A stretch of 43,503 nt of DNA, taken from contig JAMPEW010000026.1 of NCBI GenBank assembly GCA_023664775.1, positions 1-43,503 of the forward strand, read 5' to 3'. Position numbers and translations under genes: made by a program. This document shows positions 154 to 43,503 of the stretch, piece after piece (within the stretch, counting starts at the first letter, position 1; each line of letters opens with the position of its first letter). This DNA is from Clostridium sp. Its GTDB lineage: Bacteria; Bacillota; Clostridia; Lachnospirales; Lachnospiraceae. The notes under the pieces were generated by a model. The model searched no databases. It saw only the letters and a program-made list of their open reading frames with translations, and had not been told where the DNA came from.

Positions 154-182
154 TTGCACTATATACGCTTTTGTGCTATTAT
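154..182 (+). promoter_or_regulatory. Sigma-A promoter of Rpn leader copy 1
   Basis: TTGCAC (154-159), 17-bp spacer, TATTAT (177-182). The same element with the same 17-bp spacing occurs at the matching place in leader copies 2 and 3, which is the main support. It predicts a start near 189 and an untranslated leader of about 470 nt before the ATG at 659. Confidence 0.6.
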
Positions 183-354
183 TTTTCTAAAGCATAAGTC
201 TTTCAATTCTGTTTTGGGGTTTAAATCCCATTCAAAAAATCAGAAAAATTCGGAACTTCGATGCTTTGAGTTCATTACATTACAATTTAAGCAGAGGGGT
301 TGTCCGTATTTGAGAAGGACGCTGTATGCAGATGTTTTACTGGGGATTTTATTG

Positions 355-616
355 TAGTATGAGCAAATTTAGGCATGAGTAGGATTTTGGTGTGAATGAA
401 TTTGTTGCACAGGCAGAAATTTGGCACAAGTGAAATTTCGTATAAATGGAATTTCGATACAAATAAAATTCTGGTATAAGTGAAATTGCAGTATGATGAA
501 ATTCCAATACAAACGGAAATTTGCTGTAAGTAGTATTAATGCAAGCAAAATTACAGTATGGGTGAATTTTCAATATAAGTGGAATTTTACTACAAAAATA
601 ATCCAGCAAGACAGAT
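355..616 (+). repeat. Degenerate 16-18-nt repeat array, leader copy 1
   Basis: About 15 head-to-tail units with a loose consensus of GAAATT, three or four variable bases, then TACAAGTG or similar; examples are GAAATTTCGTATAAATG and GGAATTTTACTACAA. The units are direct, not inverted, and have no unique spacers between them. The last units (AGTATTAATGCAAGC, AAAATTACAGTATGGG) keep the same order in copies 2 and 3, while earlier ones differ. Confidence 0.65.
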
Positions 617-619
617 TTG

Positions 620-656
620 GGTAACCTCCTGCGGCGTTTAGTTAAAGGAGGAAACC
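620..656 (+). promoter_or_regulatory. Hairpin masking the ribosome site, copy 1
   Basis: GGTAACCTCCT (620-630) faces AGGAGGAAACC (646-656). CCTCCT pairs with the AGGAGG Shine-Dalgarno over 6 bp. After a 2x2 A/A internal loop, GGT pairs with ACC. The loop is 15 nt. The ATG follows at 659. Both arms are unchanged in copies 2 and 3; the few differences fall in the loop. Translation would need this hairpin opened. Confidence 0.65.
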
Positions 657-658
657 AT

Positions 659-1819
659 ATGAAAAACAATGAAAAATTGGAACATGGAACAAAACAAGGG
701 CAAAAACATAATACAAAACAAAGCCTGAAACATAACACGAAGCCAAGACAGAAGCATGACGTGGAACAGAAAACACATACACAGGAACAAGGCACGAAGC
801 AAAAACAAGACATGAAGAAAAGTTTGCCTGCACAGGAAAAAAGCACAAAACAAAAGCTGCTTACATGGGAGCAGTGGCAGGAGCTTACAGGCGTACAGGC
901 TGTGATATGGGAATACAGAGATACGGTGTTCCGTATGCTCCTCAGGGATAAGAGAAAGCTACTTGCACTTTACAATGGCGTAAACGGAACAAATTACGAT
1001 AACCCTGACGACTTGGAGATTGTCACGCTTGAAAATGCCATTTACATGAGCTGTAAAAATGACGTTGCATGCGTCATAGATTTTACCCTTGACATGTACG
1101 AACAGCAGTCAACGGTAAACCCAAACATGCCATTTCGCTATCTGCGGTATGTTTCAAGGGTATTTGAAAAGCTTACGATACATGATAATATTTATTCAAG
1201 GAAATTAATTAAGCTTCCGACACCTAAGTTTATCGTATTTTATAATGGAAGCGAGCCACAGCCTGAATATAGGGAATACAGGCTGTCAGACGCATATATA
1301 ACAAAGACGGCAAAGGTAAGCCTTGAGCTTATTGTGACGCAGCTTAATATCAATGAGGGGTACAACAGCGAGTTGATGGAAAAGTGTCCTGACCTTTGGG
1401 AGTATATGCAGTATGTTTCAAAAATCAGGGAATATAATAAGGATATGCCCCTTGAGGAAGCAGTGCCAAAGGCTGTTGATGAATGTATCAATGAGGGAAT
1501 ATTAAGGGAATTTCTTTTGCAAAACAAGGCGGAGGTAGTGAGTATGAGCATATTTGAATATGATGCGGAATTACATATGAAGATGGAGCGTGAGGAAGCA
1601 TTTGAGGATGGACGTGCAGAGGGAATAGAACAAGGAATGGAACAAGGCATAAAACAAGGTATGGAGCAGGGAATAGAGCAAGGAATAGAGCAAGGAAATA
1701 AACAGTCCGCGTTAAGAATGATGAAAATAGGAAAGCTGTCACTGGAGGAAATCGCAATGTGTTCTAATCTTACGTTGGAGCAGGTGCTTGAATTGGAAAA
1801 GGAGCCACAGCCGGTATGA
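659..1819 (+). CDS. Rpn-family PD-(D/E)XK nuclease/transposase-like protein
   Basis: A 386-residue protein of the Rpn (recombination-promoting nuclease, YhgA-like) group. I see the family core: a conserved N-D (residues 134-135), then D141 and E148-x-Q150 followed by ST and NPNMPFR, as usual for the degenerate PD-(D/E)XK site. The C-terminus has the typical GKLSLEEIA segment. Residues 5-58 are a Lys/Gln/His-rich low-complexity stretch with recurring KHNTKQ-like blocks, unusual for the family. Near residues 320-347 there is a run of EQGI/EQGM tetrapeptides from a 12-bp tandem repeat. The ATG at 659 is chosen because AAAGGAGG ends 7 nt before it; an in-frame TTG at 617 lacks a ribosome site. 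Family members cut DNA and promote RecA-independent recombination in E. coli; the role here is not known. Confidence 0.8.
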   Translation: MKNNEKLEHGTKQGQKHNTKQSLKHNTKPRQKHDVEQKTHTQEQGTKQKQDMKKSLPAQEKSTKQKLLTWEQWQELTGVQAVIWEYRDTVFRMLLRDKRKLLALYNGVNGTNYDNPDDLEIVTLENAIYMSCKNDVACVIDFTLDMYEQQSTVNPNMPFRYLRYVSRVFEKLTIHDNIYSRKLIKLPTPKFIVFYNGSEPQPEYREYRLSDAYITKTAKVSLELIVTQLNINEGYNSELMEKCPDLWEYMQYVSKIREYNKDMPLEEAVPKAVDECINEGILREFLLQNKAEVVSMSIFEYDAELHMKMEREEAFEDGRAEGIEQGMEQGIKQGMEQGIEQGIEQGNKQSALRMMKIGKLSLEEIAMCSNLTLEQVLELEKEPQPV

Positions 1820-3701: not shown

Positions 3702-3730
3702 TTGCATTATATACAACTTTATGCTATCAT
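3702..3730 (+). promoter_or_regulatory. Sigma-A promoter of Rpn leader copy 2
   Basis: TTGCAT (3702-3707), 17-bp spacer, TATCAT (3725-3730), at the same position relative to the 72-nt core as in copies 1 and 3. Confidence 0.6.
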
Positions 3731-3894
3731 CTTATTAAAGCATAAGTCTTTCTATTCTGTTTTTGGGTTTTAAATCCCGTTCAAATAATCAGAAAAATTC
3801 GGAACTTCGATGCTTTGAGTTCATTACATTACAATTTAAGCAGAGGGGTTGTCCGTATTTTGGAAGGATGCTGTATGCAGGTGTTTTGCTGTGG

Positions 3895-4137
3895 TACAAG
3901 CAAATTTCGGTATGGGTTGGATTTCAGTGAGAATGAATTTGTTGTACAAGCAGAAATTTGGCACAAATGAAATTTCGTATAAATGGAATTTTAGTACAAG
4001 ATAAATTCAAGTACGAATGAAATTCCAATACAAACGGAATTTTACTGTAAGTAGTATTAATGCAAGCAAAATTACAGTATGGGCGAATTTTTAATACAAA
4101 CGGAATTTTACTACAAGAATAATCCGGCAAGAAAGAT
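3895..4137 (+). repeat. Degenerate 16-18-nt repeat array, leader copy 2
   Basis: About 14 direct units of the same loose pattern as in copy 1, such as GGAATTTTAGTACAAG and GAATTTTACTACAAGAA. Some units present in copy 1 are replaced or missing, and the array is about 20 bp shorter, pointing to unit gain and loss. Confidence 0.65.
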
Positions 4138-4140
4138 TTG

Positions 4141-4177
4141 GGTAACCTCCTGCGGTATTTAGTTAAAGGAGGAAACC
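4141..4177 (+). promoter_or_regulatory. Hairpin masking the ribosome site, copy 2
   Basis: GGTAACCTCCT (4141-4151) pairs with AGGAGGAAACC (4167-4177) as in copy 1. The start TTG lies 7 nt beyond AGGAGG, the same spacing as copy 1's ATG. Confidence 0.65.
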
Positions 4178-4179
4178 GA

Positions 4180-5109
4180 TTGGGAAAAGACATCGCATAT
4201 CAAAACAAAGACATTATAAGTAAGGTCTTTGCTGAAAACCTGAAAGAAAAATCATTTAAGGCATACGGACTTGACATACCTAAAATCGTTCAGGTTCTGC
4301 CGACAAACCTGCCTGAGATAACGGCAAACGAGCTTCGGATTGACAATCTGTTTTTGTTAGAGGACGGAACAGTTGCCATTGTTGATTACGAAAGCGAGTA
4401 CAAGAAAGAAAACAAGATAAAGTACATATCTTATATTACAAGGGTTTTGGAACGGTACAGGCGGGAAGGAATCTACAATGTGCAAATCAGAATGATTGTC
4501 ATATATACGGCAGACGTGAGCAGGGGACAAACCGAGGAAATATATGATACAGGGGCATTCAGCCTGCACATTGAGGAAGCTTTTTTATCGGAGCTTGACT
4601 CGGAGGAAATAAGGAAGCGGCTTACAGAAAAAATACAGAACAACGAGACGCTTACGGATGAGGAATTAATGGAATTTATCATTCTTCCGTTGACATATAA
4701 AACGATGGAGGAAAAGAGGAAAGCCATTAATGCTTCGATAGAATTGGCAAAACAGGTAACTGATGTAGAAAAAATGGTATTTCTGCTTTCAGGAACCCTT
4801 GTTTTTACCGACAAGGTAATAGACAAAAAAACCAGCAATTATGTGAGGGAGTGGATAAACATGACACAGGTAGGAAGATTATTTGAGGAAGAAAAACAGC
4901 AGGCAGTAAAGGTGGCATTGGTTAAAAATCTTATTGCACAGGTTAGTTGTAAATTGAGAAAATCGAAGGAAGTGGCCGTTATTTCAGATGAGCTAGAGGA
5001 GGATATAGAGGTTATATCAAAAATATGTGAAGCCGCTGAGGCATATGCCCCTGATTACAATGAGGAGCTTGTATATGAAGCCTATAAGGAGCAGTACATG
5101 ACAGTTTAA
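4180..5109 (+). CDS. PD-(D/E)XK-like protein of a second Rpn-type subfamily
   Basis: A 309-residue soluble protein. The nuclease-like core is ANELRIDNLFLLEDG then VAIVDYESEYK, giving D55 and E71-x-E73, the pattern expected of a PD-(D/E)XK fold. It lacks the GKxxLEEIA tail of the genes at 659 and 33355 and is only distantly related to them, yet sits behind the same leader. The start is the TTG at 4180, 7 nt after AAAGGAGG; the in-frame TTG at 4138 has no ribosome site. Its last 32 residues recur as the remnant at 1816-1914. It may be an active nuclease, a transposon-derived recombination factor, or neither; only the fold assignment is supported. Confidence 0.65.
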   Translation: MGKDIAYQNKDIISKVFAENLKEKSFKAYGLDIPKIVQVLPTNLPEITANELRIDNLFLLEDGTVAIVDYESEYKKENKIKYISYITRVLERYRREGIYNVQIRMIVIYTADVSRGQTEEIYDTGAFSLHIEEAFLSELDSEEIRKRLTEKIQNNETLTDEELMEFIILPLTYKTMEEKRKAINASIELAKQVTDVEKMVFLLSGTLVFTDKVIDKKTSNYVREWINMTQVGRLFEEEKQQAVKVALVKNLIAQVSCKLRKSKEVAVISDELEEDIEVISKICEAAEAYAPDYNEELVYEAYKEQYMTV

Positions 5110-33354: not shown

Positions 33355-34209
33355 ATGTCTCAAAGTATGCCAAAGCGTAAGATAAAAGACAGTGTATTTA
33401 CAAACCTTTTTCAGGATAAAAAATATCTACTCCGTCTGTATCAAACACTTCACCCAGAGGACAGTGATGTGACAGAGGACGATATAAAAGATGTTACCAT
33501 CAAGCATATATTGGTTGACGCAGATTATAATGACCTTGGATTTTCGGTTGGTGATAGACTTGTCATTCTAGTTGAAAGTCAGTCTACATGGACGGTAAAT
33601 ATCATTATTCGTGCATTGATGTATCTGATACAGACATACCACGATTTTTTCAAGCGTACCAAACAAAATCTGTATGGTTCAAAAAAAGTGGATATGCCGA
33701 AGCCTGAATTGTATGTGATTTTTACAGGTGAAAAGCCGGAGAATCCACCTGATACCATATCACTTAGGGAGGATTTTTTTGACGGAGAAAAAATAGCGGT
33801 AGATGCAGAGGTTAAGGTTCTGTATCAAGAGGATGAAAAAAACATAATCGGACAGTATATTATTTTCTGTAAGGTATATAATGAACAGAGGAAGAAATAC
33901 GGACAGACGGAGAAAGCGGTGACGGAAACAATCCGTATCTGTAAGGACAGAAACGTGTTGAAGGAATATCTTGAAGATAAGGAACAGGAGGTGGTAGATA
34001 TGATGATGACATTGTTTGATGATGAATATGTTTTAGAGGCATATGCAGAGGAACGTGAAGATAACAAAGAAAAAGAAACTGAACGAAGAACGGCAGAAAG
34101 AATGATAAGGAAAGGAAAAATGACATTAGAGGAGATTGCGGATTGTGTTCCATCATTGTCATTTGATGATTTAAAGAAAATTGAGGCAGAGGTTATACAG
34201 TTGGCATAG
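33355..34209 (+). CDS. Rpn-family PD-(D/E)XK nuclease/transposase-like protein
   Basis: A 284-residue relative of the gene at 659. It has DSVFTNLFQDKKYLLRLYQ at the front, YNDLGFSVGDRLVILVESQST holding Asn59-Asp60 and Glu74-x-Gln76, and the C-terminal GKMTLEEIADC. It lacks the Lys/Gln-rich front and EQG repeats of the first gene. AGGAGG precedes the ATG. It stands alone between its own promoter and terminator. Confidence 0.85.
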   Translation: MSQSMPKRKIKDSVFTNLFQDKKYLLRLYQTLHPEDSDVTEDDIKDVTIKHILVDADYNDLGFSVGDRLVILVESQSTWTVNIIIRALMYLIQTYHDFFKRTKQNLYGSKKVDMPKPELYVIFTGEKPENPPDTISLREDFFDGEKIAVDAEVKVLYQEDEKNIIGQYIIFCKVYNEQRKKYGQTEKAVTETIRICKDRNVLKEYLEDKEQEVVDMMMTLFDDEYVLEAYAEEREDNKEKETERRTAERMIRKGKMTLEEIADCVPSLSFDDLKKIEAEVIQLA

Positions 34210-43065: not shown

Positions 43066-43094
43066 TTGAATTATATATGATCTTGTGTTATCAT
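43066..43094 (+). promoter_or_regulatory. Sigma-A promoter of Rpn leader copy 3
   Basis: TTGAAT (43066-43071), 17-bp spacer, TATCAT (43089-43094), at the same place as in copies 1 and 2. Confidence 0.6.
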
Positions 43095-43255
43095 TTCCCT
43101 AAAGCATAAATCTTTCAATTCTGTTTTGGGGCGCAAGTCTCGTTCAAAAATCAGAAAAATTCGGAACTTCGATGCTTTGAGTTCATTACATTACAATTTA
43201 AGCAGAGGGGTTGTCCGTATTTTGGAAGGATGCTGTATGCAGATGTTTTATTGGG

Positions 43256-43459
43256 ATTTTGTTGTGGTATGGATGACATTCCAATACAAACGGAATTTTG
43301 CTGTAAGTAGTATTAATGCAAGTAAAATTACAGTATGGACGACATTCCAATACAAACGGAATTTTGCTGTAAGTAGTATTAATGCAAGCAAAATTACAGT
43401 ATGGGCGAATTTTCAATATGAGTGGAATTTTACTACAAGAATAATTCGGCAAAACAGAT
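43256..43459 (+). repeat. Repeat array of leader copy 3, with a 66-bp duplication
   Basis: About 12 units of the same 16-18-nt pattern. Positions 43275-43340 and 43341-43406 are a direct tandem duplication of 66 bp (four units) differing at two bases or so. Copies 1 and 2 have this four-unit block once. The early units found in copies 1 and 2 are missing. Confidence 0.75.
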
Positions 43460-43462
43460 TTG

Positions 43463-43499
43463 GGTAACCTCCTGCGGTATTTAGTTAAAGGAGGAAACC
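43463..43499 (+). promoter_or_regulatory. Hairpin masking the ribosome site, copy 3
   Basis: GGTAACCTCCT (43463-43473) and AGGAGGAAACC (43489-43499), both arms the same as in copies 1 and 2. Confidence 0.65.
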
Positions 43500-43503
43500 G
43501 ATT

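Follow-up and report, generated by a model that had tools for sequence, protein, structure and literature searches.

Structured leader RNA ahead of Rpn-type nuclease genes in Lachnospiraceae, with a proposed choice between two folds

Why should genes for unlike nucleases begin behind the same stretch of non-coding DNA? The question is raised by the window, which here means the whole 43,503-nt contig (C18) of a 60-contig draft genome of Clostridium sp. An earlier note, made from the letters of the window, had placed three copies of a control cassette at 154-658, 3702-4179 and 43066-43503, and all three are present. Promoter-like hexamers with the reported 17-nt spacer precede each copy (154-182, 3702-3730 and 43066-43094), and the reported unit array and ribosome-site hairpin are found as well, the array being variable. 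A 72-nt core described as identical is indeed shared by the three copies, although the longest identical stretch is 74 nt. The count of three is right for the window but not for the genome, which holds 15 close copies (by DNA search) in addition to diverged ones. Our reading, to which we assign a probability of about 0.65, is that the repeated sequence encodes a structured 5' leader RNA, acting in cis, through which translation of Rpn-type nucleases is controlled by a choice between two folds.

The leader in the window

The features of the window are as follows, with the basis for each in brackets.

154..182, + strand: promoter of copy 1, TTGCAC-17 nt-TATTAT (sequence; element 1 starts 6 nt downstream)
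189..195, + strand: element 1 (AAAGCAU), predicted 5' end of the RNA, can pair with element 2 (pairing count)
208..244, + strand: hairpin P2, inside the 1:2 helix (compensating changes in pairs; limits from sequence)
238..311, + strand, also 3787-3860 and 43149-43222: 74-nt core identical in three copies (alignment)
256..267, + strand: element 2 (CUUCGAUGCUUU), partner of 1 or 3 (pairing tests)
291..299, + strand: element 3 (GCAGAGGGG), partner of 2 or 4 (pairing tests)
332..620, + strand: variable array of short units, copy 1 (sequence)
625..632, + strand: element 4 (CCUCCUGC), anti-Shine-Dalgarno strand, partner of 3 or 5 (pairing tests)
646..651, + strand: element 5, Shine-Dalgarno AGGAGG of the copy-1 gene (sequence, folding)
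659..1819, + strand: class A Rpn-type gene, 386 aa (TIGR01784, E 2.6e-4, below cut-off)
3702..3730, + strand: promoter of copy 2, TTGCAT-17 nt-TATCAT (sequence)
3737..3743, + strand: element 1, copy 2 (sequence, covariance model match)
3805..3816, + strand: element 2, copy 2 (exact occurrence search)
3840..3848, + strand: element 3, copy 2 (leader collection)
4146..4153, + strand: element 4, copy 2 (pairing analysis)
4167..4172, + strand: element 5 (Shine-Dalgarno), copy 2 (sequence)
4180..5109, + strand: class B gene, 309 aa, TTG start (family searches without match; C-terminal module in common with class A)
43066..43094, + strand: promoter of copy 3, TTGAAT-17 nt-TATCAT (sequence)
43101..43107, + strand: element 1, copy 3 (sequence, covariance model match)
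43167..43178, + strand: element 2, copy 3 (exact occurrence search)
43202..43210, + strand: element 3, copy 3 (sequence, by register of the 74-nt core)
43468..43475, + strand: element 4, copy 3 (sequence)
43489..43494, + strand: element 5 (Shine-Dalgarno), copy 3 (sequence)

Copy 3 reaches the contig end before its gene, the contig stopping 9 bases after element 5; in the sister genome G020 the matching site, recognised from 1455 bp of flank at 95.7%, has a class B gene behind the leader. Seven of the 15 close copies meet a contig end before or within their gene, as expected if the assembly broke in multicopy genes. A further gene at 33355, whose product is an Rpn relative (blastp E 1.7e-20 against a class A protein), has no detected leader before it, just as the earlier note had it. 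Eight or more Rpn-related genes of this genome share that condition: 33355, C35:19239, C37:8302, C22:134882, C19:14514, C10:51429, C3:25390 and C25:25679, besides fragments. The window also encodes, at 1929-2687, a 252-aa protein with a long Asp/Tyr/Trp-rich tail and no family match.

Distribution of leaders and the genes behind them

Related leaders precede Rpn-type genes in many bacteria of one family, Lachnospiraceae. DNA matches are found in 6 of 37 genomes sampled from the genus, and a covariance model (R1) finds matches in 14 of the 37, 81 matches altogether. The window's own genome has at least 23 leaders, 20 of them matched by R1 and three by a later model, R3 (on C58, C33 and C1). In a family sample of 299 genomes R1 matched the own genome only, a result that reflects the limit of the model, because R2 (built from the 81 matches) detects leaders in 28 of 397 genomes and 25 of 334 genera (E<=0.05), and R3 (built from 65 matches of greater diversity) in 55 of 397 genomes and 49 of 334 genera (E<=0.01), the own genome being included in both counts. 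Samples of more than 40 genomes were scored with stricter filters, and these genome counts are therefore lower bounds. Across a phylum sample of 398 genomes, few of them from the same family, R3 matched the own genome only. A pattern scan of the genome collection yields 48 stretches, from records named Lachnospiraceae bacterium, Clostridium sp. and Acetatifactor sp., from two named Bacteroides sp. and from one uncultured bacterium.

Spread of the leader by phages or plasmids was considered and rejected: 165 bases of copy 1 find no match in 50,697 phage and 72,556 plasmid records, and the exact leader pattern finds none in viral contigs, a search that diverged leaders could escape. The view that no described RNA family fits agrees with Rfam (release 15), which gives no match in the window above gathering cut-off; at E<=5, positions 100-680 give five matches only, all far below gathering scores. 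No such leader is described in the titles, abstracts and passages covered on Rpn genes and candidate structured RNAs; an earlier motif without a telling name may exist.

The genes downstream are mostly of Rpn type. Among the 104 R3 matches outside the own genome, 90 were examined, and in 77 of these the class HMMs locate an Rpn-type frame downstream, no more than 900 nt away and on the same strand (four loci, L227, L228, L229 and L226, the last being the place of L184, had themselves supplied proteins to those HMMs). A same-strand Rpn frame lies upstream in 2 of 90, a figure that is no matched control since 60 of the 90 had only 150 bases upstream. Of the 13 without an HMM match, two are cut by contig ends and six show a D...(D/E)-x-(K/Q) pattern by eye; five of the 90 leaders (L244, L304, L328, L331 and L337) precede genes that look unlike nucleases. 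The proteins behind L284, L325 and L343, and those behind L243, L283 and L308, make two further groups with PD-(D/E)XK-like residues recognised by eye, and the three that were scanned (L243, L284 and L325) have no Pfam or NCBIfam match above cut-off. The leader may point to unrecognised nuclease families.

A first collection of 84 distinct leaders gives the same picture. Sixty-six end in a recognisable Shine-Dalgarno site followed by a frame, and the 55 complete frames were sorted by script into class A (15), A-like (16), B (6), C (4), D (12) and E (1), plus one fragment, so that 54 of 55 belong to Rpn-type classes. Among the 18 leaders outside the 66 are some cut off by a contig end, some whose Rpn genes have internal deletions, one before a frame-shifted class E gene, a remnant that lacks an Rpn gene (L094) and four orthologous ones before a frame of 82-83 aa. 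The suggestion of a shared switch before unlike nuclease genes is borne out as far as the genes go (77 of 90; 54 of 55), and the core and covariance searches proposed with it, run on genomes of the family, find an Rpn-type gene next in most matches; the outcome that would have told against it, most matches lying away from such genes, did not occur. That the leader is a switch instead of a brake is something we infer, on grounds given below.

The frame of 82-83 aa is conserved in four genomes, with a full leader upstream (L165:1202-1447, on C11 of the own genome, and its orthologues L151, L161 and L172); belonging to no known family, it is the clearest non-nuclease user of the leader. In L193, L160, L202, L100 and L235 a deletion has fused the leader to the remaining C-terminal part of an Rpn gene, and internal losses in leader-linked Rpn genes seem frequent.

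Membership of the PD-(D/E)XK Rpn superfamily is found for the representatives of classes C, D and E, one or two per class: class D matches TIGR01784 and PF12784 above cut-off, class C matches PF12784 above and TIGR01784 below cut-off, and class E matches PF04754 above cut-off. In class A, TIGR01784 is found in 7 of 26 alignment members (best E 1.4e-10; below cut-off where bits are shown) and no Pfam nuclease model matched; family searches with class B gave no match. Structure predictions, which are not used as evidence here, have a mean pLDDT of 47 for class B and 63 for class A, and a search with the predicted class A fold gave no match at E<=0.001. The window's class A and class B genes share a C-terminal module. 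Just behind the stop of the first gene, at 1819-1913, lies a tail of a second-type C-terminal module that by eye resembles the end of the class B gene. This tail, together with the module common to classes A and B, suggests that C-terminal modules have been swapped between Rpn classes.

Five pairing elements and two candidate folds

A looser scan of the 126 leaders with enough upstream sequence finds a promoter-like pair in 97, against 15 of 126 shuffled sequences. The spacer is 17 nt in 90 of the 97, and in 82 of them the end of the -10 hexamer lies 5 or 6 nt ahead of element 1, from which the RNA should begin at or next to AAAGCAU. A stricter consensus scan of positions 120-700 does not flag the copy-1 promoter. 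A pairing of element 1 with the extended -10 region, in RNA that reads through, was also weighed; it was dropped when inspection by eye found the bases not kept in other clades.

Element 1 can pair with element 2 over all seven positions in 113 of 127 unique leaders and over six in 8; the remaining 6 have a shorter element 1. Variation here takes the form of wobble pairs or of one pair lost, with no two-sided change, and the case for the 1:2 helix accordingly rests on conservation and near-invariance. For elements 2 and 3 the paired fraction over the 127 unique leaders is 0.822, where 300 shuffles of partners give 0.702 (sd 0.011, maximum 0.745); the test takes in six outer positions, in a register picked for best pairing and hence somewhat favourable to the native value, and it counts only leaders with unique elements 2 and 3, after 5 of 174 records were dropped as unparsed. 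Covariation in P2 and the 2:3 core reaches 0.362, a score that none of 500 shuffles attains (0.172 when shuffled) and that slid pairs, at 0.064 or less, do not approach, in an alignment fitted to the model. In a subgroup of leaders that includes L171 and L177, an insertion of about 35 bases with a small hairpin separates P2 from element 2. A two-codon frame in the core (AUG CUU stop) was examined as a candidate and set aside: its stop is kept in the close copies, but diverged leaders read AUG CUU UAU.

Nearer the gene, folding in windows of 160 and 167 nt pairs the Shine-Dalgarno site with the preceding 45 nt at P>=0.9 in 58 of 70 leaders. The same is true of 1 of 99 control genes, taken from the window and named loci and required to have an ATG start, 200 codons or more and a clear Shine-Dalgarno site. 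The strand that covers the site in the leaders, element 4, can pair with element 3 as well. With element 4 chosen by complementarity to the Shine-Dalgarno site only, 3:4 pairing in 107 leaders is at -14.6 kcal/mol, compared to -11.6 kcal/mol with the partners of other leaders, the native partner being better in 94. Against shuffles, 3:4 lies at z<-1.5 in 92 of the 107 and 4:5 in 79, and in 98 at least four bases of element 4 serve both pairings. The pairings 2:3, 3:4 and 4:5 thus all beat shuffles. Part of the 3:4 match follows from the resemblance of element 3 to a Shine-Dalgarno site, and partners swapped within the genus give a weaker result (-11.75 against -10.67, native better in 37 of 42 combinations), in a test whose automatic choice of element 4 mis-assigned L190, L196, L151, L161, L172 and L092.

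Within single clades several elements have changed jointly. In L234, whose gene is interrupted, elements 2 to 5 form such a set as read from the sequence, element 2 being GAAAUUUC, element 3 GCAGAGAGAUUUC, element 4 GAAAUCUCCUGC and element 5 GGAGAUUUU. In L111, element 3 (GCAAAGAGG) pairs with element 4 (CCUUUUUGC), and in class D GGCAGCGAAG pairs with CUUCUCUGCC except for one mismatch. Among the close copies the distance from element 3 to the Shine-Dalgarno site runs from 64 to 363 nt as the array varies, and the flanking elements are kept.

By this comparison, transcription should start at element 1. Element 4 holds the Shine-Dalgarno site (element 5) in a predicted hairpin; it is complementary to element 3 also, and 3 to 2, with joint changes between clades, and element 2 is complementary to the 5' end, element 1. 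The scheme that we propose goes further. The OFF state, 2:3 plus 4:5, would be the default and the more stable, and the ON state, 1:2 plus 3:4, would leave the ribosome site free. During transcription 1:2 would form first and would last only if something stabilised it. The sensing part is likely the region enclosed by 1:2 (hairpin P2 and the conserved joining strands), which could be an aptamer, a protein site or a kinetic device; candidate signals are a small molecule, a protein, an RNA, or the state of transcription or infection.

Translational riboswitches have this architecture, with a 5' sensing domain, a shared strand and a sequestor of the Shine-Dalgarno site. The leader resembles them in its closing helix 1:2, whose 3' strand is shared with 2:3, in its anti-sequestor (3:4) and in its sequestor (4:5), and differs from them in that the genes are nucleases and in that there is no Rfam family. 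The layout of a 5' domain coupled by a shared strand to the Shine-Dalgarno site is present; folding bears out the coupling for 31 of the 70 leaders only, the number whose minimum-energy folds form 3:4 (at least 5 pairs) when 1:2 is forced. The Shine-Dalgarno site stays largely paired under that constraint, at 3.7 of 5 bases compared to 4.9 in the OFF fold. At equilibrium the OFF fold is favoured over the 1:2-forced one by a mean of 6.3 kcal/mol across the 70 leaders, and 1:2 gives the more stable fold in three (L182, L208 and L196). ON coupling is, then, not predicted by this equilibrium model in most leaders, and least in class D.

These energies are what a static translational brake would lead one to expect. 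On that account the 4:5 hairpin keeps a toxic nuclease low and blocks its leaky translation, nothing is sensed, and 1:2 and 3:4 go unused; the stability of the OFF fold, a Shine-Dalgarno site mostly paired even with 1:2 forced, and its concealment in most leaders all agree. Transposase and toxin genes often carry translational brakes, and in IS200 and IS10 transposase mRNAs a leader hairpin hides the ribosome site, here likewise hidden in a multicopy nuclease or transposase-like gene. A brake, however, needs neither element 1, nor P2, nor a conserved core, nor 3:4 complementarity that changes clade by clade, and the three leaders in which 1:2 is the more stable do not suit it; the leaders differ from those of IS200 and IS10 in their multi-element layout and in that most of their sites are common to sister genomes. 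We consider a pure brake unlikely, if worth keeping in view.

Folding of the growing chain brings in a second competitor. In five leaders chosen by hand, the 1:2 helix is finished by the time element 3 emerges; in four of them it then gives way to 2:3, and L208 keeps it. With 1:2 displaced in this way, switching on would need 1:2 to be stabilised, or its short life to be used. The latter would make the leader a metastable timer, in which 1:2 and 3:4 give a burst of translation during transcription and refolding shuts it off, or in which processing of the 5' end decides, with arrest of transcription or infection as the trigger. The mRNAs of hok/sok-type toxins are metastable, with alternative folds that involve the 5' end, and the leader would be like them as part of a toxin mRNA whose alternative folds involve the 5' end, where element 1 is predicted to lie. 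Against a timer, forcing 1:2 still leaves more than half of the leaders without a predicted 3:4. A difference from hok/sok is that, outside leaders, the own genome contains no exact complement to the 12-nt core element. Regulation by an antisense or trans RNA was rejected in the same search, which took exact matches only: all 21 occurrences of CTTCGATGCTTT in the genome lie in leaders (15 close copies, five diverged leaders and the one on C58). The timer seems to us about as unlikely as the brake.

It is very hard to credit that the leader RNA is instead a partner of the Rpn protein, as guide or antitoxin RNA and not (only) a regulator: it is multicopy, nuclease-linked and structured, and its unit array recalls RNA antitoxins, but many leaders have a short array or none, 66 of 84 run up to a recognisable ribosome site with a frame behind it, and the type III toxin-antitoxin layout of tandem repeats, terminator and toxin is not found, positions 120-700 of the window having no terminator before the copy-1 gene.

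Copies that look homogenised, a predicted internal start and what the leader may control

The identity of the core could in principle owe nothing to an RNA, arising from gene conversion between multicopy genes or from a platform for recombination that swaps Rpn genes. Comparison with G020 bears on this. By their upstream flanks 13 of the 15 close copies are assigned to a site shared with that genome, 11 of them on alignments of at least 491 bp; C34 and C59 were placed by hand, despite differences of 620 and 240 bp in the distance to the leader. C18a and C7 depend on short flank alignments, of 143 and 172 bp, each of which fits three G020 copies, and C7 is doubtful; C30 and C35 have no assigned site. 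In 9 of 13 copies the promoter has its nearest relative in the assigned orthologue and not among the paralogues. A paralogue is nearer than the orthologue for the core in 10 of 13, whereas the array shows this in 11 of 13 and the gene in 7 of the 8 measured, the gene of copy 2, for example, scoring 0.998 with a paralogue and 0.912 with its orthologue. Setting the best of 14 paralogues against one orthologue favours paralogues, for the promoter as much as for the other parts. The class of the gene is not the same at some aligned sites, as where C11 (a class B start, of which three codons are seen) faces class A in G20_C22a, and class A in C55a faces class B in G04_C43.

The pattern is, to judge from these alignments, one of gene conversion, with gene classes exchanged behind a common leader at sites that are mostly stable. 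The leader looks not to have been recently mobile, and most sites look homogenised by gene conversion; the idea that it is the mobile part of a gene family finds no support as far as recent movement goes. On mobility of the insertion-sequence kind, the observation is that 13 of 15 copies are assigned to sites shared with G020, 11 of them on long flank alignments. Where the earlier note offered selection, recent copying or gene conversion for the identical core, homogenisation is indicated by the closeness of array and gene to paralogues and selection by the persistence of the elements in other genera with compensating changes. Exchange between copies and the differing gene classes are thus in keeping with an identity devoid of RNA function, but elements that persist in 49 genera, with pairings that beat shuffles, make that explanation most improbable.

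The gene at 659-1819 has an in-frame internal ATG at 1544 with its own Shine-Dalgarno site, predicting a 91-aa C-terminal product. All 22 class A and A-like genes that have the motif carry a Shine-Dalgarno match at the internal Met, compared to 12 of 246 other internal Met codons; the count omits 9 of 31 genes that lack the strict motif, and outside these classes B to E are covered by the window gene only. The internal start that marks Rpn toxin-antitoxin genes is accordingly found here at the level of sequence. The internal GGAGGT also encodes a conserved E-V, and in our reading its conservation may partly reflect constraint on the protein.

According to a preprint on such systems (PMC10327210), Rpn proteins are widespread toxic nucleases with anti-phage activity; the full-length E. 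coli protein is toxic, a separately translated C-terminal product blocks the toxicity, and a plasmid-encoded Rpn gives protection from certain phages. The genes described here share with these gene-within-gene systems (RpnL/RpnS; PMC10327210, PMC5350276) the superfamily, the internal start for a C-terminal product and, in the first gene of the window, variable repeats near the C-terminus. They differ from RpnL/RpnS as there described in that the full-length start sits under a structured leader; the words "leader" and "UTR" are absent from the main text of both papers. The preprint leaves open the reasons for the differing levels of RpnL and RpnS (PMC10327210).

In class A and the related genes examined, the full-length toxin start would be gated by the leader and the internal start for the antitoxin-like product would be independent, with its own Shine-Dalgarno match, so that the switch would set the ratio of toxin to antitoxin. 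A broader picture, tentative and rather less probable than its alternatives taken together, is of a Lachnospiraceae-wide RNA sensor, present at dozens of loci and before several unlike families of Rpn-type nucleases, that would switch on a whole arsenal of toxins together for one signal, perhaps infection or an arrest of gene expression; it would release the start of the toxin, and the antitoxin start inside the gene would go on independently. A shared leader with explicit alternative pairings would allow a direct mutational test of how the full-length toxin is silenced and released. The leader also serves as a marker for Rpn-type genes that family models miss, and as a candidate RNA class whose signal could be sought.
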